Shown here one piece after another: positions 28,454 through 51,850 of a stretch of DNA of 64,000 bases. Source of the stretch: Kiritimatiellia bacterium (GTDB lineage Bacteria > Verrucomicrobiota > Kiritimatiellia > RFP12 > UBA1067). The first letter of the stretch is position 1. Every line of letters starts with the position of its first letter. Below the pieces are notes generated by a model. That model saw only the letters and a list, made by a program, of their open reading frames with translations, ran no database searches and had not been told where the DNA came from. Location of the stretch: assembly GCA_017525225.1 (NCBI GenBank), contig JAFXTB010000171.1:1-64000 (forward strand). Reading direction: 5' to 3'. Position numbers and translations under genes: made by a program.

Positions 28454-28482
28454 GGTTCTGTCCTTCCTTTGCAATGTGTTCA

Positions 28483-29451
28483 TTAGACCGCTTTCACCTT
28501 CACGCACACCTTGCGATAGCCTTTCGGCGGCGTGGCGGCGATCGTGCAGCCCGGACGGTGCCCGCCGTACGGCGGGAAGAACGCCACGAATTCCCCGACC
28601 TTGAGCGAAAGCGGCTCGCACCTCGCCTTGTATAGCACGTAGTCGTCCTTCTCGTCGAACGGCAGCGACAGCTCGCGCTTAGTCATGGTGAAGGTGCCTA
28701 TCGTCTCCTCGCCGCAGATCGGGGCGTGTATGTCGATGTACCTGCGGTGGGCCTCGGCCTTGCCGTCGTCGCCGAACGGTGTCAGCGTCGGCGAGGAGAT
28801 GTTGGCGAACACGTTCTCGCCGTCGATCACGACCTTGCCGTCAGGAAGCGAGGCGAGGTCCGTCTCGCGGAGGAACGCGAACGCCTTCGGGAAATGCGGA
28901 TTCATGAACTCGAAGCGCCTCGAATCGGCGATGCGGTTCGTCAGGAACGGCGGAACAACATCGAGGTTCGTACGGATGAGGTCCGGTCCCCTCTTCGCCA
29001 GCAGCTCCTCGTATTTCCTGCGGCATAGCTCACGGTCCGTGTAGATCCATTCGTCGCAGACGGGTTCCGTACGGCTTTCCAGATCGTACACCTCCCAGAA
29101 TCCGGCGGCGGACAGCACGCGCAGGCACCATCCGGGGCAGTGGTCGCAATAGACCGGGCTCGCGCCGCCGTCGGAATCGAGCGCCTTCGAGAGCGACGGG
29201 CATTTGTTCATGCGCAGCCGCAGGTAGTCAGGCTTCAGGTCGAGGTCCAGATCGCAGTTCTCCTCCACCCGGATGCGGCAGTAGTAGGTGTAGACTCCCT
29301 TGAGCCCTTCGCGGCGGTACTGGTCGAGCGTGAAGTTGCCCTGCCGCGCCGCTACACGGGCATAGTAGCGGTCGAGCGCCTGCGGATCCTGCTTCGCGAG
29401 GAACTTGAACATCTCGTTGTAGAACATCACGAAATGGTCTGAAGGCATCAT
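28483..29451 (-). CDS. ATC-hydrolase-like domain fused to YhcH/YjgK/YiaL domain
   Basis: The 322-residue protein has two parts. The N-terminal 190 residues resemble the L-2-amino-thiazoline-4-carboxylic acid hydrolase family, with a Cys-rich core around NKCPSLSKALDSDGG and VYCDHCPGWCLRVL. The C-terminal 130 residues are a YhcH/YjgK/YiaL (TabA-like) cupin (FPKAFAFLRETDLASLPDGK, DGENVFANISS, VGEFVAFFPPYGGHRPGC), a family linked to sialic acid and uronate catabolism. There is no signal peptide. The start overlaps the upstream gene's stop as ATGA. The catalysed reaction cannot be inferred; the fusion suggests a sugar-linked function. Confidence 0.7.
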   Translation of the reverse strand: MMPSDHFVMFYNEMFKFLAKQDPQALDRYYARVAARQGNFTLDQYRREGLKGVYTYYCRIRVEENCDLDLDLKPDYLRLRMNKCPSLSKALDSDGGASPVYCDHCPGWCLRVLSAAGFWEVYDLESRTEPVCDEWIYTDRELCRRKYEELLAKRGPDLIRTNLDVVPPFLTNRIADSRRFEFMNPHFPKAFAFLRETDLASLPDGKVVIDGENVFANISSPTLTPFGDDGKAEAHRRYIDIHAPICGEETIGTFTMTKRELSLPFDEKDDYVLYKARCEPLSLKVGEFVAFFPPYGGHRPGCTIAATPPKGYRKVCVKVKAV

Positions 29452-30005: not shown

Positions 30006-33000
30006 CTACCGTCCGCGCACCGAAAACAGCCCGTTGATCGCCTTTGTGAGCGAACGCACCTCCACTGCCAGCACCTCGCCGATGCGCTTCTGCCCTTCCG
30101 GCGCGAGCAGCCTGGGCACCTCTTCACGCGGAACCGCCGCCGTGGCATCGGCCACGATCACGTTATGGCTGCCCTGCGGCAGATACGGATAGCAGAACGC
30201 GGGACCGGGAAGGAAGTGGCCGTCCTCCATCGGCGCGCCGGTCTCGCGGCAGATGCGCCCGTCGCCCGTGGCGTCGAAGACTACCATTCCGCGCACCGCG
30301 ACCTCGCGACCGTCCTCCATCCGCACCACCACGCCCGTGACGAACCCGGCGCGGCCGCGCTCGACCCGGAGCACCTCGGCATTCTCCACAAGGACCATGT
30401 CCATCCTGCCGTAGATGGCGCGCGTGGCGTCGGAAAGCTTCGCGCCCGGCACCACCACCGCGCAGTTGCGGCCTCGCGGATAGGTTGTACGGGCAGTCAT
30501 GGCGGCCGCGATGGAGTCGCCCACCACCAGCAGAGGACGGTCGGCCAGGACCGGCGTGCTGCGCGGCGGCGGGAAGTTGACCCCTTCAACCTTCCTGCCG
30601 AGGCACTGGTCAAGCGGACGCGTGTCGTGCGAGATGTACGCGCAATGCGAATCCATGAACACCACGAGCCGGCGCATCTCCTCGTCGGTCAGGCGCACGC
30701 CCTTGTGCCCGGCCTTGAGCTTCGCGTAGAGGGGCGACGCGAGCGCGCCAGCCTTCCCCGGCTCAGAATACGGCTGCACGAAGTCGTCGCCCTGCACGCT
30801 CTTCGCCCACCAATCCGCGCCAACGTACCGCCGCGTGTAGTAGTGCACGAGGCCGCGCCCCACAAGCTCGATGAACGACGTGTTGAAGCAGTAGGGGTTC
30901 AACCAGATGTCGCCGGCCCGTAGGTCCGGCATCTTCGCGGGGTCGCGCTTCTCGCCGTGGCAGGCTACGCACCTGGCGTCCAGCACAGGCTGTACGAGCG
31001 TAGGATAGTTGAATGGCCTGGAGCCTTCCGGCTCGGGCTTCAGCTCCGACGGCGGACGGCGGAATGCCATCGGCGCGGCGGCGGACGCGGCGGCGGCGCG
31101 ACCGTGGCGGGATTCGTGACAGCCGTTGCAGGTGAGCCTCTCGCCGGCCTGCGCGTAGGCGACTGTGCGCATCGTCTGCACGGCGCACCCGTTCTCGTCG
31201 AGCGCCTGGAAGTACACGGGCGTCTTCACCGGCACGTTGAAGTGCGCGCTGCCGTCCAGCTCCACGGGGACCGTCCCAAGGCACTGCCTGCCGCCCATCT
31301 GGTCCACTGCGCCAAGCCGCGGATGTCCGTCCATCGGCTCCAGCTTCGGGAACACCTGCCACACCCGCAGCGCGGATATCTTCGTGCCGGGCGGGAACGG
31401 GTAGCGCGAATTGTAGACGTTCACAAGCCCGTAGGCGGCGGTCTGCGGCAGCTGCGACTCGGGGATCGCCTCCGGGCGCCTGCCGTCCGCGTCCGCAGGG
31501 CGGCCGAAGAGCGTACGATGCGGTATCACCGGCGGCATTGGCCGCGCCTTCAGCGGCATGGCGTCGGCGCAGGAGATCGTTGGATGCTCGAAGATGCATA
31601 TCTTGTTGCCGAACGCGTCGAGGAGCGTGAGGCGGTACTTGCGCCGCTGGTAGTCGATGAGGCGCGAATACTGGTCGTTAGCGCCGCCGTCGTACGTGCA
31701 GATGTAGTATTTCTCGGAAAGCGGCCAGGGCGCGCCGTAGCAGCCAGACGGCCTGAGCGGCCAGCGCACGAGCTTCTCCGATTCAGGCAGGAGCTCGTCC
31801 GGCGTGAGACGCTTCACCTGGCTCATCTCGCCGTCGTCCGGGACCGATGGATCCAGCAGCACAAGCGAGCCTCGGTCGGGGGTGTGGTGGCCGCCCGATA
31901 CCCCCACGTACCTGCGCGAGCCGGGGATGGCGCGGATGGACTGCACGAGATGCGGCGCGCGCCGCTGGCTCTTGCGCGTATTGCCGTTGAGCTCGCGCGG
32001 GTCGCGTCCGTCCGGATACGTTATCCACGCATGGTGCGCCTGGTTGAAACCACGGTCGGTGTAGTCCCAGCGCGTGTATACGACCATGCCGTCGTTGTCC
32101 ACTGAAGGTTCCCACTCGTTCGTCTCGTGGGGCGAGAGGCATACCATGTCCGTGCCGTCGGGGAACATCGAATGCAGCGTGAAGTTCGGCACCTCGCGCA
32201 TGTGGCAGCGGCCGTATCCGCCGCGTCTCTCGGACACGAACATGATGCGTCCGTTCGGCAGCCAGCACGGGAAGAGGTCGTTGACGCCGCCCCATGTCAG
32301 CATCTCCAGGTGCGATCCGTCCGCGCGCATCTTCATGATGTGGAAGGTAGTCTTCTCGTCCCATTCGCGCGTACGGTGCTCGCCGGGCGTCCAGCAGAAG
32401 AGTATCTCCTTGCCGTCCCAGCTCACGTCGGGCGCGAGAAAGCCGCCTTCTGCGGTGATCTTGAGGTTGTTCCACTGCGGGTTCGCGGAATGTATCACCG
32501 TGCCCGCCGGCGCCATCTCCACGAGCCTTGGCTCGTCGCCGAACGGATCCTCGAGCGTCCACAGTCCGTTGCCGTGCGTCGAACCCTTGAGCGTCGCATG
32601 GAAGCCGAAGTACTGGTCGCACATGTGCGTGCCCCAGACCTTCTCCTCGGCGGTGGGCGTCTCGCGCGTGATGAAAAGGAGCTTGTCGATGTCCTTCAGC
32701 AGCGGATTGGAGAAGGCGATCCTGCGCCTGAGGCGCATGGCGCGCTCGAAGAGGGCGAACCGGGCATCCTCGTCCGCCACGGGCACGGCCTTCGCCTCCG
32801 ACTCCAGCGCCGCGATCGACGAGCGGAGCGTCGCGAACGCGGCGGCGTCCCCTTCCTTCTCGACCACGCCCGCCAGATCGTCGGCAAGAGCGCGCGTACG
32901 CCTGAGCAGCACGTCGAGCGGATCGCGGTCCTGCGGCCAGATGAGGGCATGCTCGTTCACCACCTCTTCCGCCGGAGGCTGGAAGAACGGCACGTTGGTG

Positions 33001-33203
33001 TTACCGTTGATGTCGCGCTCCTCGCGCGGCTGGGCATGGTAGCGTATGTCGCGCTCGAGCAGACGGAAGGTATCCAGCGTCTCCATCCGCTGCCGCACCG
33101 TCCTCGAAGGCGGCTCAGGAAACACCCGTTCCGCGGCAACCGCCGCGAATGCCGCGGAAACGGCGACCGAAAGTGCAAGGGAGAGGCAGTCTGTATGATT
33201 CAT
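30006..33203 (-). CDS. HzsA-like PD40/c-type heme protein with truncated FAD-oxidoreductase tail
   Basis: The 1065-residue exported protein has a signal peptide (LALSVAVSAAFAAVAAER). Residues about 200-640 are PD40/WD40-like beta-propeller repeats with ISCADAMPL and VWQVFPKLEP as in hydrazine-synthase-alpha-related (HzsA) proteins. Two CxxCH heme motifs occur near residues 691 (CNGCHES) and 746 (CVACHGE). From about 884 to the end lies a partial FAD-dependent oxidoreductase domain (VVGDSIAAAM, FDATGDGRICRETGAPM) lacking a normal dinucleotide-binding start. PVC genomes have many HzsA-like proteins without anammox; function is unknown. It lies 25 nt after the beta-helix gene. Confidence 0.75.
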   Translation of the reverse strand: MNHTDCLSLALSVAVSAAFAAVAAERVFPEPPSRTVRQRMETLDTFRLLERDIRYHAQPREERDINGNTNVPFFQPPAEEVVNEHALIWPQDRDPLDVLLRRTRALADDLAGVVEKEGDAAAFATLRSSIAALESEAKAVPVADEDARFALFERAMRLRRRIAFSNPLLKDIDKLLFITRETPTAEEKVWGTHMCDQYFGFHATLKGSTHGNGLWTLEDPFGDEPRLVEMAPAGTVIHSANPQWNNLKITAEGGFLAPDVSWDGKEILFCWTPGEHRTREWDEKTTFHIMKMRADGSHLEMLTWGGVNDLFPCWLPNGRIMFVSERRGGYGRCHMREVPNFTLHSMFPDGTDMVCLSPHETNEWEPSVDNDGMVVYTRWDYTDRGFNQAHHAWITYPDGRDPRELNGNTRKSQRRAPHLVQSIRAIPGSRRYVGVSGGHHTPDRGSLVLLDPSVPDDGEMSQVKRLTPDELLPESEKLVRWPLRPSGCYGAPWPLSEKYYICTYDGGANDQYSRLIDYQRRKYRLTLLDAFGNKICIFEHPTISCADAMPLKARPMPPVIPHRTLFGRPADADGRRPEAIPESQLPQTAAYGLVNVYNSRYPFPPGTKISALRVWQVFPKLEPMDGHPRLGAVDQMGGRQCLGTVPVELDGSAHFNVPVKTPVYFQALDENGCAVQTMRTVAYAQAGERLTCNGCHESRHGRAAAASAAAPMAFRRPPSELKPEPEGSRPFNYPTLVQPVLDARCVACHGEKRDPAKMPDLRAGDIWLNPYCFNTSFIELVGRGLVHYYTRRYVGADWWAKSVQGDDFVQPYSEPGKAGALASPLYAKLKAGHKGVRLTDEEMRRLVVFMDSHCAYISHDTRPLDQCLGRKVEGVNFPPPRSTPVLADRPLLVVGDSIAAAMTARTTYPRGRNCAVVVPGAKLSDATRAIYGRMDMVLVENAEVLRVERGRAGFVTGVVVRMEDGREVAVRGMVVFDATGDGRICRETGAPMEDGHFLPGPAFCYPYLPQGSHNVIVADATAAVPREEVPRLLAPEGQKRIGEVLAVEVRSLTKAINGLFSVRGR

Positions 33204-38611: not shown

Positions 38612-41600
38612 CTATTCAGCGACGACCAGCACGCCGGCATTGGATTTGAGCGGGACGGACATCGTGCCGTCGGCGCGCTTTTCGACGGCGACGGCGCCGT
38701 TTCCGTCAAATGCCTTGACGATGCTCGTTGCCGACACGGGCCGGAAGACGATCACGTGCGTCCTGGGCGCGACATCCTCGGAATCGTCGCACGCGGCTAC
38801 ATAGGTCGCATAGCCGCCGGAGCCATCGCGCGACGCGAAATGTCCTACCGCCAACGCCGCGCCGTCGGTCGCCTTGACATCCGCGAATCCAACGCCCGTG
38901 GATGCCGCCAGTACGGGCTGGGCGACCTTCCCGGCGAATTCGGCGGCATTGAACCCGACGAGGTCCGTATTGATCCTGCGGTATTTCATGTACTGCGGCG
39001 AGATGCGATGCAGCTCGGCGTTGACCGTCTTGAGCATGTCGTAGGTGGCAGTCTTCATGCCGTTGGTGTCGACTGCGTTTTGCGCCCACCAGCCCTTTGT
39101 CCAGCAAGCCCACGAGATCACCTCCGCGCCATACGCGAGCGCGGTGTTCGCCTGGTAGCGGAGCGTGTTCACCGTCATCGCCCTGTTCTTCCTGCTGCCT
39201 TCCGCGTACTGGTTGGCCTGCAGGACGATCCAGAGGCTGCGATGCGTGGCCGTGCAGGCGTCGGCGACAATGCGCAGGTTCTCGAACATGCCCGGCACCT
39301 TGTTCTTCCAACCCCAGAGATAATGATCGTAGCAGATGTAGTCGAGCGGGACGTTCTTGCAGTATATCTCGATGTGCGTGCGATAGTCCTTGCAACCCAG
39401 CTGCGTCTTGGAGAGGTCCTGGCCATCCTTGCCCGGCAGCGCGTAGTTCGGGAAGAGGTTCAGGTACGGGAACTGGTTCGGGAAGTTCTCCGCCGTGCAG
39501 CGCACGACTTCGCCGTAGTGGGGGAAATCGAGCGCGGACGGCTCGTCGCCGATGTCGATGGCCCACACCGCCGGATGGTCCTTGAACTGCCTGGCGGCGT
39601 TTTCGTACTTCCAGATCGGATTGTACTCGTGCATGTGCCCGTTGCGCTCGTAGCTTCCGCCGCCCCACCATCCGGGCGTGACCCCGCCGAGGATCACGCC
39701 GACCTTGTGCTTGAGGCAGAGGTCCAGGGTCTTGCGATCCAGATTCTCGATCACAAAGTCGATTCCGCAGTCCGCAATGTCCTTGATATGCGCCTCGGTG
39801 CGGGCATACGGCTTGAGGCAGTATGTTCCGATGTTGAGCTTCGTACGATCCATGCGCTTCGCGGGCTTCTTCGCCTTGCGCCACCTCGCGGCCATGGCCT
39901 CCTCGTCGAAATCAAGCGGAATGAACGTGCGATAGCTGTTGCCGGGACGCCAGAGGTTGCCGGCGGACGCATAGTCGCAGAACCGGATGCGGGCCGGACG
40001 GCGCCCTTCCGGATTCTCGGCATGTCCGCCGATCGGCAGCGCCGCCGAGACGATCATGCGCATTTCGTCAGGACGCTCGGGCTGTTCGAGCGTGAAAGCA
40101 GGGAGCCTGTCGAAATTAAAGCAGTAGCGACGCAGCTCGGCGGAGATATCGCCGTCGCCAAAGCGCGAATCGCGGGCCAGCAGCACGGGACCGCGCGTGA
40201 ACGCCACGTGGTCATGGCTCACGTGCGCCTTCACAGGGAGACCGAAATCGAGCGTCACCACGTCGCCAGGCTTCCACAAGCGTTCATGCATCGTATAGCG
40301 TGGTCCCACGAGGTAGCGCGCCTCGACAGCGCACCCGTTCACCGTCATCCTGTTGTTGGCCGTGCATCCTGGAATTCGCACGGAGAACTTGAACTTCATC
40401 GGCTTGTCCAGACGGAAGCGGATGTCGACCTTCCCGTCGCGCGGATATGTCGTATGCACCTCGAAGCACGCCTTCTTGCCGAGGGATGGAACCAGCACCG
40501 ATGCGTAGCCGGAAGCATACCAGTTCATGAACACCTCGTCGTTCTTCGCCTGGAGGATCGAACGGAGAAACGCGAGGAAACCGCGCGGGCCGTTGGCGTT
40601 GCAGCAGTTCGTGTGCATGCGGCAATGGAGATGCCCTTCCGACCTGTAGCCTGTAAGGGGGGTGTAGGCGGCGAACAGCGAACCGTCATGGTTCAGCGAA
40701 GCGAGATAGGCGTTGTAGAACGTCTTCTCGAACTCTTCGGCATACGACGGATCGCCCGTTATCGCCAGCAGCTTCTCGCAGAGCCGCATCCATGTGATCG
40801 TCACGCACGTCTCCTGCAGCGCGCTGTACGGTTCATGCTGATGCTCGGCGCCATGGAACCAGAACTCATGCGAGGCGGCGCTGCCGGCCAGATTGATCTC
40901 GTCGCGCACTATGCTCGCCACCGTTGCGATCGTCGCGGAAAGCAGATCCTTCCTCCCCGTGACCTCGTAGTACTCCAGCAGCCCCTGGTAGCAGCTCATC
41001 ATCTCGTATGCCTTGTTGCGGCTCTTGATGAAGTCCTGCCAGAAGGAGTTGGGGGCTGGCGCCGGCGAACGGTTCGCCACAGGGCACGACGCCAGCTCCA
41101 GAAGCCGGGGACCGTCCTTGCGCTCCGTCATCTCCTTCACGATGAAGGCGGCAAAATCAAGGTACTTCTGCTCCTTCGTGCGGCGATAGAGCCACATCAC
41201 AGGCTCCAGCACACTGCAGCTGGGCATGCCGGAATAGTTGCCGGTGCCGCCGATCTTCAGCTTTGAATCCGGCCCGACGCTGCCAATCAGATAGTCGCAG
41301 AGCCGCCGGCAGGACGCCATCGACTTCGCGTCGCCAGTCGCGTCGTAGTAGTGCAGAAGCCCCATCATCGTGTACTTGATCCCCCACACGTCCCACGTTC
41401 CGTGCGCGCTGCGGCGGGATTCGATGTAGTTGCCAAGATAGCCATCCGCCTGCTGCGCAGACAGCAGATTGGCAATTCCCGCATCGAGCTTGCGCTTCAG
41501 GACGGGGTCCTTGGTCATCGACCAGAACGGCGCGGCGGAATGCATGTACTTGCCCCAGAACTCCGTCTGCCACAGGCCCGTCTCGGTGCGGTGCTTGAAG

Positions 41601-41782
41601 CATTCCGTGAGGTACACGGGGTCCTGCTCAAGCACGTGGTTGCGATACATCGCCTCAAACGTCTTCGCCAGCGGTCCTTGCAGCGATACGTCTCCGTCCG
41701 CAACGCCGACCCTTGGCGTGACGGCCTGCGCGGATGCCGTCAATGCGGCGGCGAGTGCAACAAGTACGATCCTTTTCATCAT
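38612..41782 (-). CDS. GH127-type beta-L-arabinofuranosidase fused to TIM-barrel glycosidase
   Basis: The 1056-residue exported protein (signal MKRIVLVALAAALTASAQA) has two catalytic-looking modules. Residues about 25-615 match GH127: YLTECFKHRTETGLWQTEFW, DGYLGNYIESRRSAHGTWD, VWGIKYTMMGLLHYY and HTNCCNANGPRG near residue 394. The Cys pair is the family's nucleophile/zinc site. Residues about 640-1056 are a TIM barrel (LNIGTYCLKPYARTEAHIKD, DIGDEPSALDFPHYGE, PLDYICYDHYLWGW). That barrel is homologous to the stand-alone protein at 47101-48450; the Glu of DEP is the likely acid/base. Together they could strip L-arabinose and a second sugar from one glycan. Confidence 0.85.
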   Translation of the reverse strand: MMKRIVLVALAAALTASAQAVTPRVGVADGDVSLQGPLAKTFEAMYRNHVLEQDPVYLTECFKHRTETGLWQTEFWGKYMHSAAPFWSMTKDPVLKRKLDAGIANLLSAQQADGYLGNYIESRRSAHGTWDVWGIKYTMMGLLHYYDATGDAKSMASCRRLCDYLIGSVGPDSKLKIGGTGNYSGMPSCSVLEPVMWLYRRTKEQKYLDFAAFIVKEMTERKDGPRLLELASCPVANRSPAPAPNSFWQDFIKSRNKAYEMMSCYQGLLEYYEVTGRKDLLSATIATVASIVRDEINLAGSAASHEFWFHGAEHQHEPYSALQETCVTITWMRLCEKLLAITGDPSYAEEFEKTFYNAYLASLNHDGSLFAAYTPLTGYRSEGHLHCRMHTNCCNANGPRGFLAFLRSILQAKNDEVFMNWYASGYASVLVPSLGKKACFEVHTTYPRDGKVDIRFRLDKPMKFKFSVRIPGCTANNRMTVNGCAVEARYLVGPRYTMHERLWKPGDVVTLDFGLPVKAHVSHDHVAFTRGPVLLARDSRFGDGDISAELRRYCFNFDRLPAFTLEQPERPDEMRMIVSAALPIGGHAENPEGRRPARIRFCDYASAGNLWRPGNSYRTFIPLDFDEEAMAARWRKAKKPAKRMDRTKLNIGTYCLKPYARTEAHIKDIADCGIDFVIENLDRKTLDLCLKHKVGVILGGVTPGWWGGGSYERNGHMHEYNPIWKYENAARQFKDHPAVWAIDIGDEPSALDFPHYGEVVRCTAENFPNQFPYLNLFPNYALPGKDGQDLSKTQLGCKDYRTHIEIYCKNVPLDYICYDHYLWGWKNKVPGMFENLRIVADACTATHRSLWIVLQANQYAEGSRKNRAMTVNTLRYQANTALAYGAEVISWACWTKGWWAQNAVDTNGMKTATYDMLKTVNAELHRISPQYMKYRRINTDLVGFNAAEFAGKVAQPVLAASTGVGFADVKATDGAALAVGHFASRDGSGGYATYVAACDDSEDVAPRTHVIVFRPVSATSIVKAFDGNGAVAVEKRADGTMSVPLKSNAGVLVVAE

Positions 41783-41812: not shown

Positions 41813-44800
41813 TCAAAGCTCGACGATGCCGGCGGGGAGCTGCTTCTCCACCTTGATCCGACCGTTCTCCAGCCTCCATGAAACCAAGATGCGTCCCTTT
41901 GGCGTATCGAGATGTCCCTTCGCCCATGTGACGCCGGCGACGGCATACGGCGCGATGCGCACCTTGTCGCAGCCCACCGCGTCCTCCGCGACCTGGATGC
42001 CTAGGATGCCGCGCATCAGCCAGGCCGCGCACGACCCGAACATGGGATGGTTGTGCGAATATGTGTTGTCCGACGGCGCCCACGTCTCCCAGAGCGTCGT
42101 GGCGCCGTTGTCGAGCATGTTGAACCAGCCGGGGAAGCCCTTGTGCGAAAACACCCGGCCGGCGATCTCCGCATCGCCACGAGCCGTAAGTATCTCAAGA
42201 ATATACTGCGTGGAGAAGATGCCGGTGGACATCGCGTAGTCGTGGCCGGCCACGTTCTCCTTCAGGATGCGGTAGGCGGCATCGAGATCTTCCGGCGGCA
42301 GCATGCCGTGGTAGATCGCGAAACATTCCTCGCCCTGCCTGCCGTCTCCGACGAATCCCTTGGCCGGCACATATCGCGCGGCGGCGGCAAACGCCGCCTC
42401 CAGCTCCCTTGCCGTCGCTTCGAACTTTTCCGCGTCAGGCGTCTCGCCGAGAAGTCGTGCGAACTTCGCCGTCAACTTGAGGAACTGGTGGTAGTGGCAC
42501 TGCGCAGTCAGAACCTTGTCCGCCTTCTCCAGCGCCTCATGGTCGCCGATGCACGGCGGCACATGTCTTGTATCGAACGTCTCGGCGCAGCGGAACAGGA
42601 AGCGCCGCAGGAAGGGATAGGCCTCACGCATCGTCCGCCTGTCGCCATAGTAGCGCAGAAGCAGATCCACTACGATCGGCGCGTCCACGGCCCAGCCGAA
42701 GCGACAACGTTCGACGCACTGATTCGGAAACACCGACGGCGACGTGGTCGAGAACACGCCGTGCAACGCTTCCATGTCGCAGCGGTCGCGCACGACCTTG
42801 CGGTAGAACGCAGACATGTCGTAGTTGAGGACGAACGACTCCGCCGTAGCCGCCAGATCGCCGCCATATCCAAACCGCTCGCGCGCCGGGCAGTCCGACT
42901 GCACACCCTGCATGTTGGACCGGAAAGTCCGCCTGCACACGTCGCGGAGACGGTTTATCTTCGGATCCGAACACTCGAACGACGTAGAATCCTTCACGTC
43001 CGCACTCCAGGCAAGAGCCTCGAAATCCTCCGGCGACGGAGCTACGCGCAATCCCGCCACCTCCACATAGCGGAAGCCATGGAACGTGAAACGAGGCTCG
43101 TAGACGAACCGTTCCGCCTCAGGGCAGATGACGGTGTCCTTCTGTTCCGCGATCCCGGGTGGATCGATCTTGGCCTTCTTCTGCTGTCCGCAGACGCTGG
43201 TCATCACGTTCAGCTTCCCATCTGGATACAGTATCTCCCCATATCTGAACGTCACCACGTCGCCGTCATGCGAGCCCTTCACCGTCGCCCTGATCGTACC
43301 TGCGAAGTTGACGCCCATGTCGACGATCCACTTTCCGTCCGGCAGCGGCTTGACGTCCTTCGCCTTCCACCGATCGTACACAATCACGGGCGGCGCGTCG
43401 CCGCGCGGCAGCACTGCGCCCTTGGGCGCATCCGACACAACCCGCGCCGCCTGGCGGGGCGCACCGGCCCCGGCGCGCCGCCGCATGTCGCGCTTCTCGC
43501 CAAGATAGAGATTGTTGCGCAGCACCGGTCCGTCCGACGCGCTCCAATCGCGATCCGTGACGATGCGTTCCGTCGTGCCATCCGCATACGTCACCTCCAG
43601 TGTCGCCTTGGCCGTAGGCGTTCCGTGCGGAAGGGTCTTGCGCAGGTTGAAGCGCCCCCACATCTTCATCGGGAGCGGATTCCACCAGCCGTTGCCCAGT
43701 TCGATCGCAAGCGTGTTCCTGCCTTCCTTCACAAATGCCGTGACGTCGTATTCATCCTCCAGAACACGCCGGTCAAAGGCAGTCCAAAGCGGCAGGGCCA
43801 CGACATTTACGCGCTTCCCGTTAACCGAGGCATCGTACATCCCCGGCGAAGCGATGCGCCACACCGCACGCTTCACCGGCTTTGCCGCGAGCGTGAACTC
43901 ACGCTCCAGCACGGGAGCCGGAGCATCGGCGAAATGCGCCGCATAGTCGTCCTCGCCCGGCACTACGTACTGGCCAGTGATCCACTCCGCCTGTCCTGTG
44001 CCGGTCGAACGCGGACATTCAAGCATCAGTTCCCTGAAGCGCGCGATTTCTTCGTCGGTGATGCCACAGGCTTTCGCATATGCGACGCATTGCCTCTGAA
44101 CCGGCATCTTGGGGAAGGTCTCGTTCAGATAGCGCTTAAGACCGTCTATGTAGTTCCAGTGGTTGAACTTCACCAGATCATAGTTGAACACGGTAAGTTC
44201 CCAATCCTTGTCGAGATCATCTTCGGCCACGCCCAGGATGCCGCCCAGCAGCCAAGCGAGCGAACCCGTGCGATCCGCACCGCCGGCGCAATGGAATATC
44301 GCCGGCAGATTCGCCGGATTGTTCAATTCGCGGAAACACTTCGCGAACGCGGCCTTGGCCGTTTCAGTCTTCATTCCGTCATAGTTGGAAGAACTTACGT
44401 TCACCCATCTCGTCGATGGTCCTAACGGAGACGATGTCATCCCGTAGCTTTCCCAGTCGGTGCGAAGGTCAAGTTCCAACCGTATCCCAAACGTCGCCTC
44501 GGCCTCTTTCCTGGCGGCATCCGTAAGCAGGGATTCGCCGACCCGCCATTCCGACCTGGGCTGTTCCTTGCGCCCGTGCGCCTGACGGTTCAGGGCCGCC
44601 GAACGGTACAGCATCCCCTGCTTCACACGCCTGCCATCCAACGTCGCGTAGCCACCGATGTCGCGTACGTTGCCTACGCCGTCCATCCTGCAGATGCGCG
44701 GCACTCCGGCTTCGGTTTCGAACGTGCCCGTCCCGACCGTCTTGCCGCCACGCCGCGCGGTCCAGGTATAACGCGTTCCCACGAGAAGATTGTCGATGAC

Positions 44801-47080
44801 GGCAACGCCATTCGCCACCTTGATCGTGCGTACACGGTCACGCGAGACGCGTGACCCTACCGACACATCGCCTGCCAATGCGCGCAGCTCCACTTCGGTC
44901 GCGTCGCCGACTTTCAGCTCGAACGGCTTCGGACACGAACCCACCTTCTTTGCCGACACCCTGAAATCCTGATCCAACATGAGACCCATGCGTTCCCATT
45001 TCGGACGTTTCAGAAATTCACGCATGGCATCGGTAATTATCGGCACCTTCCTATCGCCCGCCGCCTTGAACAGCACCACCTTGGCCGTGCACGGCTTGTC
45101 GGCGCGGATCTCGAACGATCCGTCACCGGGAATCGTCCAGTTCTCCGAGGTGTCCACATCCGTGAACACATACATCTTCGCGGGGTCCAGTCCGCGCGGC
45201 CTGACGACGAACGCCGTCGTCGGGGTGTGCTTGCGCCTGAAGAGCTGGATGAAACCGGAACCGTCGTCGGCATCGACGAATTCCCATCCGCACCACAGGT
45301 CGCTTCCATTGTCGGAGCGCGTGAGCGGATAGAAGTCCTTCACGTAATAGCGCCTGATCTTCTCCCACAACAGGTAGTTCGCCTTGAGGTTGTCCCAGTT
45401 CACGTTTGCCGGCGCCAGGCCGGTCCCCACGTTGAGATATGGCATCAGACGGCTGCGCAACTCGTAGGGATCGGCGGTTTTCGGACGCCCACCGCCATAG
45501 AGCGGCACCCACAGGGATATACCCTGCGTCTGCATCTGCTGCTCGTCCAGGGGACCACTCGTGTCTGTGCGCCATAGCGGCGCCGAATAGGAAAGCGACT
45601 CCACGTCGTTCCTACAGCCGCCCTGCGAGCAGTTGTCGATACGCCTGCAGGACGGATTCGACGCCAGCACGGCCTCATACAGCCGATAGAAGCCTTCCAC
45701 GTGCTTCATTTCGGAAATGCCCACGCGGTTCTGTTCGCCGTTCCGCGCATCGTGCTTGCGCCAGAAGTGCAGAGGCGGGAAGTTGAAGTCGAGCCGGAAG
45801 TAGTCCGCATGCTCGCGCTTCAACACGGAATCCACCGTCTTGAACCCCCATTCCCACGCCTTGGGATCGCCAAGGTTGAGGAACGCGCCGCGCCCGGTGT
45901 TGCCGGCGTAGAAGTATTCGGGGTGCGCCTGATATACGCGGGCGGAAGGCACTACGCGCTCCAGCTCGAACCACAGGATGCCATCCTTCGCGCCAAGCTT
46001 CTCGCGGGCGTAATCGAACACCTCGCCAGGTCCCTTCGGGAAACGGACGGGATCCGTGTCGTAGTTGCCGGTCCAGCGCCAATGCGCCTCGCCGCCTTTC
46101 TTGTTCCACTGGCTCTTCCATTCGTACCATGCCGCATCTATCCACCAGTAGTCGATCTTGAAGCCATGCGCGGCATACGCATCCACACCTTCCTTGTGCG
46201 TGGCGCTCGACCAGCTGTCGCTATCGAAGCCGACGCTTCGGGCCGAGCACATTGTCTGGTACGGGATGACTTTGCCGTTCAGACGCGGCTCGTTGCATTC
46301 AAGAAACCACTGGCGCCAGATGTTCTGCCCCTCGATCCAGTCGCCACGCCTGTAGAAAAGCACCGTCGCGCGCGGACCGCGCACGGCCTCGCCGGGATTC
46401 AGGTAGAACCGGCTGTCATTCATGCCTGCCGTGAATCTGAGCGTCCCATCTTCCTGCGCCAGGAAATCAGCCTGCCACTGCCCGGCCCAGCCGATCGCGG
46501 CGATCATGCCCCGTCCGGCGTCTGGCGTCTCGACGTTGAAATAGGGCCAGGCCGTTTCACACGCCCTCCCGCCGGTAGTCTCTACATGGAGGCGATGGCT
46601 TTGAGGCCGAAGCCACCATTCGCGCGTCACCGGCGTGGTGAACTGCTGGTAGTCGTCGAGCGACTGCATCGCCCCAGCGGCATGGTGGACGACATGATGC
46701 TTGCGCTTGGACACGGCGGGAAGCAGGAAATCGAAATTGCGCACATTGGAGATGATGCCCGATTTCGCCGTCGACACGTTCCTGAAGCGCAGCAGCCAGG
46801 AGAGCGCTGGGAAGCCAGGATATTTCCGTATCTCCAACATTGCCTCGACCGTTCCGGACGGCTCGCGGAAGACATAGCCGGCATCGGTCTTCGTCCGAGT
46901 CCAGCCGCCGGCACGGAAATCCTTTCCGTTGTAGGAGAACGTGAACGGCAATTCCTTCAATTCGCCGCCAAAAACGTGAGCTGACCACTCCTCCGCCTGC
47001 TTAAGTTCGTCAGCGGTCGGTACGAGCGCATACGCCGCGGCAATGGCAAAAGCCACCGATAGAACGATCGTCTTTTTCAT
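41813..47080 (-). CDS. triple fusion: GH36-like glycosidase, tyrosine phosphatase, GH78 rhamnosidase
   Basis: The 1755-residue exported protein (signal MKKTIVLSVAFAIAAAYALV) has three enzyme modules in one uninterrupted frame. Residues about 25-730 are a clan-D/GH36-like alpha-galactosidase: FKIDYWWIDAAWYEW (~310), YFRLDFNF (nucleophile Asp ~434), and RIDNCSQGG with WRTDTSG (~483-503). A fibronectin-like segment leads into a Y_phosphatase3 domain at about 795-1030 with VGNVRDIGGY and the Cx5R loop HCAGGADRTG (~930). Residues about 1035-1755 are GH78 alpha-L-rhamnosidase with DCPARERFGYGGD (~1400) and NTYSHNHPMFG (~1675). All three sets of key residues are present. It sits 20 nt after the upstream glycosidase gene. 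Confidence 0.9.
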   Translation of the reverse strand: MKKTIVLSVAFAIAAAYALVPTADELKQAEEWSAHVFGGELKELPFTFSYNGKDFRAGGWTRTKTDAGYVFREPSGTVEAMLEIRKYPGFPALSWLLRFRNVSTAKSGIISNVRNFDFLLPAVSKRKHHVVHHAAGAMQSLDDYQQFTTPVTREWWLRPQSHRLHVETTGGRACETAWPYFNVETPDAGRGMIAAIGWAGQWQADFLAQEDGTLRFTAGMNDSRFYLNPGEAVRGPRATVLFYRRGDWIEGQNIWRQWFLECNEPRLNGKVIPYQTMCSARSVGFDSDSWSSATHKEGVDAYAAHGFKIDYWWIDAAWYEWKSQWNKKGGEAHWRWTGNYDTDPVRFPKGPGEVFDYAREKLGAKDGILWFELERVVPSARVYQAHPEYFYAGNTGRGAFLNLGDPKAWEWGFKTVDSVLKREHADYFRLDFNFPPLHFWRKHDARNGEQNRVGISEMKHVEGFYRLYEAVLASNPSCRRIDNCSQGGCRNDVESLSYSAPLWRTDTSGPLDEQQMQTQGISLWVPLYGGGRPKTADPYELRSRLMPYLNVGTGLAPANVNWDNLKANYLLWEKIRRYYVKDFYPLTRSDNGSDLWCGWEFVDADDGSGFIQLFRRKHTPTTAFVVRPRGLDPAKMYVFTDVDTSENWTIPGDGSFEIRADKPCTAKVVLFKAAGDRKVPIITDAMREFLKRPKWERMGLMLDQDFRVSAKKVGSCPKPFELKVGDATEVELRALAGDVSVGSRVSRDRVRTIKVANGVAVIDNLLVGTRYTWTARRGGKTVGTGTFETEAGVPRICRMDGVGNVRDIGGYATLDGRRVKQGMLYRSAALNRQAHGRKEQPRSEWRVGESLLTDAARKEAEATFGIRLELDLRTDWESYGMTSSPLGPSTRWVNVSSSNYDGMKTETAKAAFAKCFRELNNPANLPAIFHCAGGADRTGSLAWLLGGILGVAEDDLDKDWELTVFNYDLVKFNHWNYIDGLKRYLNETFPKMPVQRQCVAYAKACGITDEEIARFRELMLECPRSTGTGQAEWITGQYVVPGEDDYAAHFADAPAPVLEREFTLAAKPVKRAVWRIASPGMYDASVNGKRVNVVALPLWTAFDRRVLEDEYDVTAFVKEGRNTLAIELGNGWWNPLPMKMWGRFNLRKTLPHGTPTAKATLEVTYADGTTERIVTDRDWSASDGPVLRNNLYLGEKRDMRRRAGAGAPRQAARVVSDAPKGAVLPRGDAPPVIVYDRWKAKDVKPLPDGKWIVDMGVNFAGTIRATVKGSHDGDVVTFRYGEILYPDGKLNVMTSVCGQQKKAKIDPPGIAEQKDTVICPEAERFVYEPRFTFHGFRYVEVAGLRVAPSPEDFEALAWSADVKDSTSFECSDPKINRLRDVCRRTFRSNMQGVQSDCPARERFGYGGDLAATAESFVLNYDMSAFYRKVVRDRCDMEALHGVFSTTSPSVFPNQCVERCRFGWAVDAPIVVDLLLRYYGDRRTMREAYPFLRRFLFRCAETFDTRHVPPCIGDHEALEKADKVLTAQCHYHQFLKLTAKFARLLGETPDAEKFEATARELEAAFAAAARYVPAKGFVGDGRQGEECFAIYHGMLPPEDLDAAYRILKENVAGHDYAMSTGIFSTQYILEILTARGDAEIAGRVFSHKGFPGWFNMLDNGATTLWETWAPSDNTYSHNHPMFGSCAAWLMRGILGIQVAEDAVGCDKVRIAPYAVAGVTWAKGHLDTPKGRILVSWRLENGRIKVEKQLPAGIVEL

Positions 47081-47100: not shown

Positions 47101-48450
47101 TCAATCTTTGACGCTGACAAGCATCACGGCAGAATTCTCCGCAAGCTGGATGGTATATGTCCCATCTGGTCCTCGCGCCAACTCAACCGGACCATTCGCG
47201 CCATACGCCTCTGCGCGTCTCTCGTGCGGCACGCCGAAAGAGAGCGTGCGCACGGCGGGCGCACTGTCGTACGGATCGCCCGATGCCACCACGAAGAGAG
47301 CGCGCGAACCGTCACCCTGGCATCGTGGAGACATTTCACCTACGACAAGCGGAGTGCCTTCCTGTGCGCGCAATCCGAAGAAGAAGCCAGTGTCCAGCCT
47401 GTCCAGCAGCGGCATGCCTAGCGTTTCCAGTCCATTCGTGGCGGCAAATCCGACGTAATGCGTGGCGGTGCTTCTGTAGCGCATGTAGCGCGGGCCGAAG
47501 TTGCGCAGTTCCATGTTGACAGTCTTGAGCCTGTCGTACTGGGCCGTCTTTCCGCCGGACGCCGTCAGCACGTTGTTGGTCCACCAGCCGGGCGACCAGC
47601 ACGCCCAGGTGACCACCTCCGCGCCAAACGCCATGGCGGTGTATGCCTGAAAGCGCAAGCGGTTCTCCGTTGTGGGCTCGAAGTCTTCGCCCTTGGGTGG
47701 AACCTGCGAGTTGACCTGCGGAATGTACCAGAAGCTTCGGCCCGTGCGACGGCAAGCCTCGGCTACGACGTTGAAGTTATCGTACATCTTTACGTAGAAT
47801 TTCCTGCGCCGCGCGGGCCGCGTCTCGTACGGATAGAAATCGTAGGCGATGTAGTCGAGCGGCACCGTGCGGCAGTAGACATCGATGTGTTCCCTGTATG
47901 TTGCCGTACCGAGCTGGTTGCGGGTTTCCTTTTCTGTGTTTTTGGACACGGAAGCGTAGTTCGGATACAGGTTCAGGTACGGCGGCGACTTCGGCGCGCG
48001 TTTGGCCAGCAAGTCGCAAAGCTCGCCAAGGTACGGCAGATCGAGTGCGCTCGGCTCGTCAGCGAGATTGAGCATCCAGATAGCGGGATGGTCAAGCCCC
48101 TCCGCCAACGCCGCCAGATCGCGCTCGTAGTCGGCTCTCGGACGCTTCTCGCGCATCTTTCCCGCCTCGGATCCGTTTCCGCCCCACCAGAACTTGCCGA
48201 CCCCGTCGCCGATTACGCCTATTCCGTACTTGGCAAAAAGATCCAGCGTCTTTCTGCTGCGAATGCCCACGCCGACGATGAAGTCCACGCCGCATTCCTT
48301 CACGTCGCGTATGTGCGCCTCGTCCTGCGCCACCCTGTTGAGGCAGTAGGCGCCTATCAGCAGCCTGGATCTATCCATCCGCGGTGCCTCAGCACCAGTC
48401 GTCATGGCCATGCATGCGGTTGCAACAACCATGGAACACATTGTCTTCAT
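47101..48450 (-). CDS. secreted TIM-barrel glycosidase (paralog of the GH127-fusion C-domain)
   Basis: The 449-residue protein has a signal peptide (MKTMCSMVVATACMAMTTGAEA). The mature part, RLLIGAYCLNRVAQDEAHIRD, LADEPSALDLPYLGE, PYLNLYPNYAS and VPLDYIAYDFYPYETR, aligns with the C-terminal half of the GH127 fusion. The Glu of ADEPS is the probable acid/base of a clan-A (GH2/GH42-like) barrel. I cannot assign a family number. The 99 bases of open frame upstream of the ATG belong to shadow sequence. It is the second gene of the operon led by the beta-strand-repeat protein and lies 29 nt after it. Confidence 0.75.
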   Translation of the reverse strand: MKTMCSMVVATACMAMTTGAEAPRMDRSRLLIGAYCLNRVAQDEAHIRDVKECGVDFIVGVGIRSRKTLDLFAKYGIGVIGDGVGKFWWGGNGSEAGKMREKRPRADYERDLAALAEGLDHPAIWMLNLADEPSALDLPYLGELCDLLAKRAPKSPPYLNLYPNYASVSKNTEKETRNQLGTATYREHIDVYCRTVPLDYIAYDFYPYETRPARRRKFYVKMYDNFNVVAEACRRTGRSFWYIPQVNSQVPPKGEDFEPTTENRLRFQAYTAMAFGAEVVTWACWSPGWWTNNVLTASGGKTAQYDRLKTVNMELRNFGPRYMRYRSTATHYVGFAATNGLETLGMPLLDRLDTGFFFGLRAQEGTPLVVGEMSPRCQGDGSRALFVVASGDPYDSAPAVRTLSFGVPHERRAEAYGANGPVELARGPDGTYTIQLAENSAVMLVSVKD

Positions 48451-48479
48451 GAAACACCTGCTCTCGCCGCGATGACGTG

Positions 48480-51400
48480 CTACCTTAGGATTATCTGGAA
48501 TCTCGGATAGGCCATGCGTACCTTCCTGCCGTTCAGGCAGATGACCCACGGCGGGGGAACGTCCGTGACCGTCGGGATCTGTCCGGAATAGTTCTCTGGC
48601 AGGAACAGCAGCGTATAGCCGCGATCGGCCTTCTCCGCAAGTTCGCCGTTCAGAAGGTTGAACGAGCTTGGAAGCGTCATCGCGGACGTCACGGTGGTGG
48701 CGTTACCAGCCTTCGCGGCGGCGATATCAAGAGCGCACTTGTTCGCGGGCAATGTCACGCTGCCAGCGTCGTTGACAACCGTGCCGCCCGCAAGCACCAC
48801 CTGCTCCACGGCAGTGAGGTCGGGGATGTCCTGCGTAGTCAGGTCGAGCGTACCACCCTCCAGCCTTAGCGCGCGTGTGGAAGTCAACGCGGCGGCGTTC
48901 GACGAGACGAGCGTTCCGCCTGCCACGACGGTGGCGCCCGTGTAGCTGTTCGCGCAGTCGAGGACGAGCTTACCCGCGCCTTTCTTCGTGAGACCGCCGG
49001 AACCATTCGCGGAAAGCGTGCAGGCTACGGTGAACGTATTCGTGTAGCCGCCCTTCGAGATCGTCGCCGTTGCGGACGTGTAGTTCTGTCCACGATTCAG
49101 CACGCGGAAACCCGTCACCTTGCCGGTCGTCGTATTGTAGATGGCAACGGCTGTCGCGCCGGTACCGGTGCCGGTTGGATCGGTGATCGTCACCGCCGGG
49201 GCCGCGATGTAGTCCCAGGCCTTGAGCGAAGCTATCGCGTTTGGAAGCGGAATGGATTCCACGCCGTTGCCCGTCGGCGCCTCCAGAGGCATGCCAACGG
49301 CGTTGTCGCGTCCGGCGGTGTCTATCGTCGCACCGCCGGAATGGATATAGACATGATCCGTCCCCGCCGTGAAGTTACGGAACAGCTTGCCCTTGCCGGT
49401 TGCGCTGGTATAATCTACCGACGTACGCAGAATGCCGTTGTTGAACGACACCAACGCCTTGTTGCCGGTCAAATCCGTCGAAACTTTGTTAAAGGTGGAT
49501 TTCAATATCTTGCTGAAACCGTTAGCTGCGATCGTTCCACCGTTGTTGATGTCGACCTCGCCGATGGAGTTGAACTGGCCGGCGAGCGCAATACCACTTG
49601 TCCACTGGATCGAGTTCGTCGCCGAGGCGTTCTCTCCGTCCACGGCGAAAATGGCATGCGATCCCCCCGTCTTGTTTTCGCCATCCTGACGCGGGAAATA
49701 CAGTATCGAGGATGAAGTGAGCGTACCGCTGCCCGATACGCAAATCGTCGCCTGGGCGCCAGCCTGGCCGGCGCCTATGTCCTGTGTCGCGAACACGCCG
49801 CCCTTGATGTCTATGAACGACGTCACGCCTACCCTGCGCCCCATGCGGCAGTTGTTGTTGTTGTTGACGAACCTGCCGCCCTCTATGCTGGCATACATGT
49901 TATGGTAGCTACCGAAATACTGGTAACCGCCCGGCGTGATGAACGTCCCGCCATGCTGGAAGTACGATCCCTGCCAGTCCGAGTACTTAGCAGGGAGAGA
50001 GGGGTCTAAGAGATGCGACGATATCCTGTTGACGGTATCGCCGCCATCGATCCTGTTGGTCACGACCGCGCCTTCGTACAGTTCGATGATCCCTCTTCGC
50101 GTGTTGGACGAGTCGAGATAGTTGCGGGCGGCATACAGACCCGCATAGTTGCTCACGGCAACACCGTTCGTCTTGCTCTCATTCACGTAAGTACCCTTCA
50201 CCACGAAGCGCGCCACTTCAGGATAGTCGGCCGCGACGAACACGCAGTTGGAGCCTTCCGCCTCGGCATACGTTCCGGCGGGAACCGTCACCGTGCCGCC
50301 GCGAACATCGATCCAGCCAACGCTCATCTTCTCGCCGGGCTGGCCCGCAAGGATCAGTTCGCCGCCTTCGTTGATGTAGTTCTGCCGTCCGTCCCCGGAA
50401 GATGCGATCGTGAGCGCATTCGTGCCACCGTGGTAGATCATAAGAGGCTCGTCGAGTGTGCGCGAAAATGTCCTGTCGGCCCCAAGCTCGTAGTTGAACG
50501 CAAAGAACTTGGTGCCTATCACGGTCGGCCACACGAGATTGTCGCTTACGCCCTTCCACATCGCATAAAGGGCATTGTCGGTGAGGTTCGTCGACGAGAG
50601 GTCGATGTTGAGGACGCTATTCGTTCCACCCGTCACCCTGCCGTCAAGGACGCCGTATAACGGACCTGCGGCGTTGACCGTCACGCCTTTGTTGATCGTC
50701 AGCGCACCGGTGGTCGTGTTGGTGGTACAATTAAGGTTGAGTGTCGCGGGATAGTTGGCTCCGCTGGTGGCAATGATATCGGCGCCGCCGGAAATGACGT
50801 TCGGGACATCAAACGAGCAGAAGATCCCCAGGTTGTTTGCCTCTCGCAGGTCGAAAGTCAGCGTCCCGCTCGCCGGGGTGGTGAGAGTACCCCAAATGCC
50901 GTAGCTGCCAGTCCACCCCTTGCTACTTGCTTGCGAAGTTGCAGACGAGCATATCGTGGCATCGCCTTCGCAGACAACGTCCCATTCACACTTTTTAGCA
51001 GTCTGTATGCGCTGAGGACCCTCCTGAATCTTCGCGTTTGGCCCAAGGCGGATGACCGCCTTGTCGCCCTTCCAGACATAGCCGGAAGGCGCCCTGTTCA
51101 TGTTGCCAGGCGTACTGTTCTCGAGATGCACCTTGCAGCTGCCGGTTGCATATATCTCACCCGGACCGTATATCGTATCTCCGCACAGTTCAAGCGTTCC
51201 GCCATCTGCGGTCAGCTTATGGCCGTTGAAATACATGGCTTGTGTCGCACGCGGTCCCACCGTGGGCGAACACTTGAAAAGCGTATCGGCCGTGAGATGT
51301 ACGGTACAGCCGTACATGATCTGGTTCTGGCTGTTTCCGATAGCACAGAGGGCGCCAGCACCCCCTACGCCCGTGCCGCCGATGTAGATGTTGTGCTGCC

Positions 51401-51803
51401 GGAGCAACGACCTGTTGGCGGCAACGCCACTTCCACCCAGTTCTATTGTCGCACCCGGTTCAAGGCGTAGCGTACGCGTACGAGTATTGTCATTGGTGCC
51501 GTCCGCCCATGACGTCATGAGGCGCACGTAGCCGTTGGATATGCCGAAATCCCCTTTCCAGTGCGACAGATCCCTGTTCATGACCAGGCGTCCGCCGCCT
51601 TTCTTTATGAGGGCATTCGACGTAGCGAGCGCATTCGCGTCGGCAGCGGTTATCGTATAGTCGCCTTCATTGTCCTCGACGGTTATCGTCACCTGCCCGG
51701 CGACCGAGGTATCGACCATCGCCGCAAGAGAATGTAAAGTGAAAGATGTAGAATGTAAAATGGCGAGCACGGCGAGCAATGGATACGTTTTCACGAATTT
51801 CAT
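48480..51803 (-). CDS. giant secreted beta-strand repeat protein with terminal RFQIILR
   Basis: The 1107-residue protein has a signal peptide (MKFVKTYPLLAVLAILHSTS, then FTLHSLAAM) and autotransporter-associated beta-strand repeats such as ALIKKGGGRLVMNRDLSHWK, LTKKGAGKLVLDCANSYTGA and TVVAGGTLVSSNAAAL. Gly/Thr/Asn-rich beta-solenoid sequence fills the rest. No translocator barrel is visible. The C terminus ends in YPRFQIILR. ATG at 51803 has AGGAG 7 nt upstream; ATG at 51806 is the alternative. Part of the signal-peptide coding region is made of heptanucleotide repeats. It leads the operon that encodes the GH36/PTP/GH78 and GH127 fusions. Confidence 0.85.
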   Translation of the reverse strand: MKFVKTYPLLAVLAILHSTSFTLHSLAAMVDTSVAGQVTITVEDNEGDYTITAADANALATSNALIKKGGGRLVMNRDLSHWKGDFGISNGYVRLMTSWADGTNDNTRTRTLRLEPGATIELGGSGVAANRSLLRQHNIYIGGTGVGGAGALCAIGNSQNQIMYGCTVHLTADTLFKCSPTVGPRATQAMYFNGHKLTADGGTLELCGDTIYGPGEIYATGSCKVHLENSTPGNMNRAPSGYVWKGDKAVIRLGPNAKIQEGPQRIQTAKKCEWDVVCEGDATICSSATSQASSKGWTGSYGIWGTLTTPASGTLTFDLREANNLGIFCSFDVPNVISGGADIIATSGANYPATLNLNCTTNTTTGALTINKGVTVNAAGPLYGVLDGRVTGGTNSVLNIDLSSTNLTDNALYAMWKGVSDNLVWPTVIGTKFFAFNYELGADRTFSRTLDEPLMIYHGGTNALTIASSGDGRQNYINEGGELILAGQPGEKMSVGWIDVRGGTVTVPAGTYAEAEGSNCVFVAADYPEVARFVVKGTYVNESKTNGVAVSNYAGLYAARNYLDSSNTRRGIIELYEGAVVTNRIDGGDTVNRISSHLLDPSLPAKYSDWQGSYFQHGGTFITPGGYQYFGSYHNMYASIEGGRFVNNNNNCRMGRRVGVTSFIDIKGGVFATQDIGAGQAGAQATICVSGSGTLTSSSILYFPRQDGENKTGGSHAIFAVDGENASATNSIQWTSGIALAGQFNSIGEVDINNGGTIAANGFSKILKSTFNKVSTDLTGNKALVSFNNGILRTSVDYTSATGKGKLFRNFTAGTDHVYIHSGGATIDTAGRDNAVGMPLEAPTGNGVESIPLPNAIASLKAWDYIAAPAVTITDPTGTGTGATAVAIYNTTTGKVTGFRVLNRGQNYTSATATISKGGYTNTFTVACTLSANGSGGLTKKGAGKLVLDCANSYTGATVVAGGTLVSSNAAALTSTRALRLEGGTLDLTTQDIPDLTAVEQVVLAGGTVVNDAGSVTLPANKCALDIAAAKAGNATTVTSAMTLPSSFNLLNGELAEKADRGYTLLFLPENYSGQIPTVTDVPPPWVICLNGRKVRMAYPRFQIILR
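51728..51762 (-). repeat. CATTCTA-type heptanucleotide repeats inside a signal-peptide coding region
   Basis: On the minus strand the segment reads CATTTTA, CATTCTA and degenerate versions of the same unit. It encodes the signal-peptide core ILHSTSFTLHSL of the downstream giant protein. The same unit occurs as perfect tandem copies at 63723-63750. Confidence 0.6.
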
Positions 51804-51850
51804 CATGACACTCCTTTGGATTGAACCGTTGGTAGAGGACAACGCGTTAT

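Follow-up and report, generated by a model that had tools for sequence, protein, structure and literature searches.

In the gut of grazing animals lives a bacterium with a single exported protein that carries three enzymes: a GH36/melibiase-like glycosidase, a PF13350 phosphatase preceded by an FN3-like domain, and a complete GH78 module. Its gene lies in the 64,000-nucleotide stretch of Kiritimatiellia DNA analysed here (the window). We propose that the product is secreted and works as a hydrolase with three enzymes, its phosphatase taking off phosphate monoesters, probably those of a phosphorylated carbohydrate, and we give this reading a probability of about one half. What is new is a multimodular CAZyme bearing a phosphatase whose subfamily is found repeatedly as a module. 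In related gut bacteria the unit of FN3-like domain and phosphatase repeatedly shares a chain with other carbohydrate-active enzymes, which supports the proposal, while the occurrence of the exact trio in one genome alone counts against it.

Results

The fusion gene (41813-47080, minus strand) starts with ATG and encodes 1755 amino acids. The N-terminus, MKKTIVLSVAFAIAAAYA, is by inspection an evident Sec-type signal peptide (aa 1-19, 47024-47080 (-)). It is followed by the GH36/melibiase-like module (aa 20-672, 45065-47023 (-)), a short helical lead with the phosphatase's accompanying FN3/Ig-like domain (aa 679-795, 44696-45046 (-)), the PF13350 (PtpB-like) phosphatase (aa 796-1021, 44018-44695 (-)), an eight-residue linker, CPRSTGTG (aa 1022-1029, 43994-44017 (-)), and the complete GH78 module (aa 1030-1755, 41816-43993 (-)), which opens with QAEWITG. 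The sequence-only reading had described a single 1755-codon frame holding three enzyme families with their key residues intact, and Pfam placed all three: PF02065 Melibiase at aa 338-539 (E 9.8e-14), PF13350 Y_phosphatase3 at aa 799-1021 (E 1.2e-25), and the GH78 families PF08531, PF05592, PF17389 and PF17390 at aa 1067-1751 (best E 3.2e-70). Each module also has sequence matches in the PDB.

That reading had also taken the protein for a true fusion, and the joints bear this out. The frame is uninterrupted, neither joint shows a stop or a frameshift, and GC and GC3 along the gene stay within the range of the remaining frame. Free-standing phosphatases of the same kind consist of a signal peptide and TVPILTADMKAYL, run to FRSIMLE and then stop; the corresponding unit in the window extends from VPIITDAMREFL (aa 679) to FRELMLE (aa 1021), the point at which these relatives end. 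The nearest GH78 relative, 79% identical and found in a genome from another family of the order (G050), begins MKRAEWITG and has no signal peptide, so the GH78 part, by this comparison, is now exported while its nearest relative lacks an export signal. Compared with their free-standing relatives, both fusions are clean end-to-start joins of whole genes.

A misassembly that joined two or three genes is very improbable. The draft genome comprises 180 contigs, and a many-copy REP-like palindrome (44836-44861 (-), 5' GGTAG) lies in frame within the FN3-like domain, which would favour such an error, yet the joints (43994-44017 and 45047-45065) are away from this palindrome and from any other repeat, and both are in frame and precisely on module borders. 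The region 43700-45500 occurs in full only once in the genome. Misassembly is improbable because the joints coincide with the ends and starts of free-standing relatives and this region is single; moreover, fusions of the same style occur in independent assemblies.

The palindrome is itself of some note. GGTAG plus GGTCACGCGTCTCGCGTGACC is translated as VGSRVSRDR, which lies in a loop modelled at pLDDT under 50. At two or fewer mismatches the genome holds 37 copies (control 0), some of them within other long open frames, and it encodes one Y1_Tnp (RAYT-type) gene.

The predicted catalytic residues of all three modules are in place. In an alignment to the GH36 alpha-galactosidase LaMel36A (2XN0), the two catalytic Asp residues are matched by D431 and D506 and the CSxGGxRxD stretch aligns as well; both features are likewise shared with NPCBM-bearing melibiase-like proteins. 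The module scores 51.5 bits against PF02065, over the cut-off of 27, whereas Glyco_hydro_36C reaches 19.2 bits, below its Pfam cut-off of 27. The sugar pocket differs: 2XN0 has DDGW, the window module reads DYWWIDAAW, and close relatives have DAGW. Because the second Asp of the galactose-pocket pair is absent from this alignment, we call the module GH36-like rather than an alpha-galactosidase, and it may not act on alpha-galactose.

The GH78 module shares with the alpha-L-rhamnosidases 6I60 and 3W5M the four Pfam domains, the acid/base region and the TTLWE motif. Its 6-hairpin catalytic domain and the N, concanavalin-like and C domains all score above the Pfam cut-off. Its motif DCPARERFGYGGD (aa 1396-1408, 42857-42895 (-)) is one residue shorter than the DCPxRDER form, as in its close relatives, where forms of the same kind (DCPAREKFGYGAD and DCPGREKFGYGGD) occur. 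The acidic catalytic residues are kept in this motif and in TTLWETW (aa 1661-1667), both with counterparts in close relatives, and their roles are assigned from the known structures. Unlike 6I60 and 3W5M, the module is joined to a phosphatase.

An AlphaFold model of aa 677-1029 (pLDDT 91.5) consists of an FN3/Ig-like domain and then a PtpB-like phosphatase. Its best fold matches in the PDB are the C. difficile PTP (8dhj, Z 20.0) and M. tuberculosis PtpB (1ywf, Z 18.8); inositol-pyrophosphate phosphatases are also in the list, and SEX4 and laforin are distant fold matches only. Glucan phosphatases such as SEX4, LSF2 and laforin are PTP-superfamily enzymes that dephosphorylate a glycan and are coupled to a carbohydrate-related domain. 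They differ from the window enzyme in belonging to another PTP subfamily, in being intracellular and in being joined to binding modules rather than glycosidases. The likeness to PtpB (1YWF), the C. difficile PTP (8DHI/8DHJ) and Pho16B is closer, comprising a PF13350 match over the cut-off, the fold (Z 18.8-20.0) and a Cx5R active site with Asp before Arg. The window enzyme departs from these proteins in its preceding FN3-like domain and in being embedded in a multi-enzyme glycosidase.

A further departure lies in the P-loop, HCAGGADRTG (aa 930-939, 44264-44293 (-)). Among 25 phosphatase modules, 21 columns are invariant, and those of the His, Cys, Asp and Arg in the P-loop are among them. The usual loop of the unit is HCxxG[A/Q]DRTG, without the Lys of PtpB-type phosphatases: in 84 relatives, gathered by similarity to the window sequence and thus not a random sample, the Lys site holds Ala in 54, Gln in 21, Arg in 4, Lys itself in 3, and Val and Gly in one each. 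The atypical lipid phosphatase (ALP) signature is HCXXGKDR[TA]G (PMC6409689), and the window P-loop departs from it with Ala in place of Lys. Since this Lys is described as important in substrate binding, its loss suggests a non-phosphoinositide substrate for the window enzyme. Ten viral contigs (L219-L228) carry the same phosphatase type, HCxAGADRTG, in proteins of 610-790 aa with a shared C-terminal part; these form one clade near a Bacteroidales protein, and the three tested had no PHROG family.

How widespread is the architecture? The sequence-only reading had named recurrence of the three-module order in other genomes as support for a true fusion, and for the exact order this prediction failed: it did not turn up in 60 relatives, in 115 genomes of the family (queried with the GH36-phosphatase joint) or in a phylum sample of 388 genomes (queried with the phosphatase-GH78 joint). 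The latter query matched 204 of the 388, some of them through its GH78 end. In plasmid records no place covered 80% of the fusion protein, and the matches listed were to GH78 alone.

The narrower pairing of this phosphatase with a carbohydrate enzyme did recur. The window's own genome contains 11 PF13350 stretches, some of which are two stretches of one protein. The FN3-phosphatase unit is common and in many proteins carries a further module. It occurs, free-standing or fused, in rumen and herbivore-gut Kiritimatiellae, Victivallales, Clostridia and others. A second phosphatase-GH78 fusion is present in another genome (G026), a GH31 fusion in the window's own genus, and a GH106 fusion is kept in three species with 90% identity over the whole length. 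Further partners are GH5, GH29, GH127, DUF4838, CBM9, SASA and BD-FAE esterases, metallophosphoesterase and PD40; the arrangements include DUF4838 with the phosphatase, and an amylase-like C domain with a metallophosphoesterase and the phosphatase. A quickly built tree of 146 phosphatase domains, whose deep forks are weak, places the GH78/GH29, GH106, GH5/DUF4838 and window fusions apart, which points to carbohydrate partners having been gained more than once. The pairing recurs in at least four lineages, and once in three species. Several genomes of the family, the window's among them, also carry a fusion of metallophosphoesterase, FN3 and phosphatase (L044, L052, L053, L112, L113, L114, L333, L327).

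These patterns bear on whether the window protein is a recent neutral fusion, formed through loss of stop codons and leaving three uncoupled enzymes to act on unrelated substrates. Such a history would agree with the single occurrence of the trio, with modules whose relatives stem from different families, and with the surroundings of the nearest GH78 relative, a lone gene without a signal peptide: only this gene of G050 matches the window in a synteny comparison, and the genes around it are unrelated. We nevertheless consider it unlikely, as all three modules are full and keep intact active sites despite their divergence (nearest phosphatase 41-50% identical, nearest GH36-like module 39%), and the FN3-phosphatase unit has entered independent, conserved fusions with carbohydrate enzymes.

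The fusion gene sits in a glycosidase-bearing stretch, with its neighbours on the same strand. Downstream, 30 bp away, is a gene for a GH127 enzyme fused to a GH-A-like barrel (38612-41782 (-)); upstream, at 20 bp, is a gene for a predicted TIM barrel with a beta domain and no Pfam family (47101-48549 (-)). The tail of the GH127 protein (aa 641-1056, 38612-39871 (-)) is 42% identical to the whole of this upstream protein, so a second fusion directly adjoins the first. The model of the upstream protein (pLDDT 89) resembles barrels of the GH30/GH35 type (best Foldseek E 3e-10, TM about 0.45), and its family, with members in about one third of the relatives searched, has an invariant D-E-P motif. 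With its predicted GH-A type fold, it is a candidate new glycoside hydrolase family. The window also encodes large PATR (autotransporter-associated repeat) proteins at 24164-28621 (-) and 48480-51842 (-), one of them two genes upstream of the fusion gene, and a 1065 aa protein (30006-33203 (-)) that matches the hydrazine synthase alpha middle domain (PF18582, E 1.9e-19), a domain that is odd in a gut fermenter.

The flanks of free-standing phosphatases had no excess of carbohydrate genes (101 flanking versus 99 random frames from the same genomes, 25 families listed), which weakens the glycan reading. Metallophosphoesterases numbered 3 in these flanks and none among those listed in the random frames, too few to use.

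The lack of carbohydrate specificity in these neighbourhoods agrees with a phosphatase that is a general secreted scavenger, releasing phosphate from inositol phosphates, nucleotides or other small esters of plant feed and sharing no step with the glycosidases. The inositol-pyrophosphate phosphatases among the fold matches and the very diverse partners of the unit would fit this role, as would Pho16B, a PF13350 enzyme that uses phytate and many other substrates (PMC6409689). We regard the scavenger role as less likely, though, given that the P-loop Lys linked to substrate binding is mostly replaced by Ala or Gln and that carbohydrate-active enzymes are the most varied kind among the partners that Pfam can name.

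Discussion

Why place a phosphatase on the same chain as two glycosidases? Sulfatases and esterases, which take off substituents, are common companions of carbohydrate-degrading enzymes, and a phosphatase on the chain of such a degrading enzyme would play the corresponding part for phosphate. In our preferred reading, that of a secreted hydrolase acting on phosphorylated carbohydrate, the phosphatase would be an active cysteine phosphomonoesterase that works through Cys931, Asp936 and Arg937 of the P-loop. It would strip from a carbohydrate or glycoconjugate the phosphate esters that would otherwise block glycosidases, after which the exo-acting glycosidases on the same chain could resume trimming terminal sugars. 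The GH78 module would take L-rhamnose and the GH36-like module a galactose-like or another sugar, and fusion into one protein would let all steps take place at one and the same chain end and outside the cytoplasm. The target may be a phosphorylated galactose/rhamnose-containing glycan, as the sequence-only reading had suggested; candidate substrates are phosphorylated bacterial rhamnans or plant glycans. Where the unit is paired with a metallophosphoesterase, the two may form a phosphodiester-then-monoester pair that would convert a diester to a monoester and then to free phosphate. The substrates of the unit may extend beyond glycans, given that its partners also include esterases, metallophosphoesterases and PD40 repeats.

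The multimodular CAZymes of gut bacteria likewise place several catalytic modules on one secreted chain. The titles and abstracts of the literature found describe no phosphatase module in them, and the portions of the open-access literature covered contained nothing relevant on phosphatase-glycosidase fusions in this bacterial group. The change in the P-loop marks a testable subfamily within a group otherwise known from pathogen phosphatases.

A broader view is possible but tentative: herbivore-gut PVC bacteria may possess a mobile, secreted FN3 and HCxxG[A/Q]DRTG phosphatase that is specialised for glycans and repeatedly fused into exo-glycosidases, marking a class of phosphorylated glycans, dietary or microbial, that these bacteria digest and that has so far gone unrecognised. 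The repeated phosphatase fusions hint that these microbes eat phosphate-decorated sugars, and, having arisen independently, they offer a ready set of test proteins for the phosphorylated glycans used by gut bacteria.
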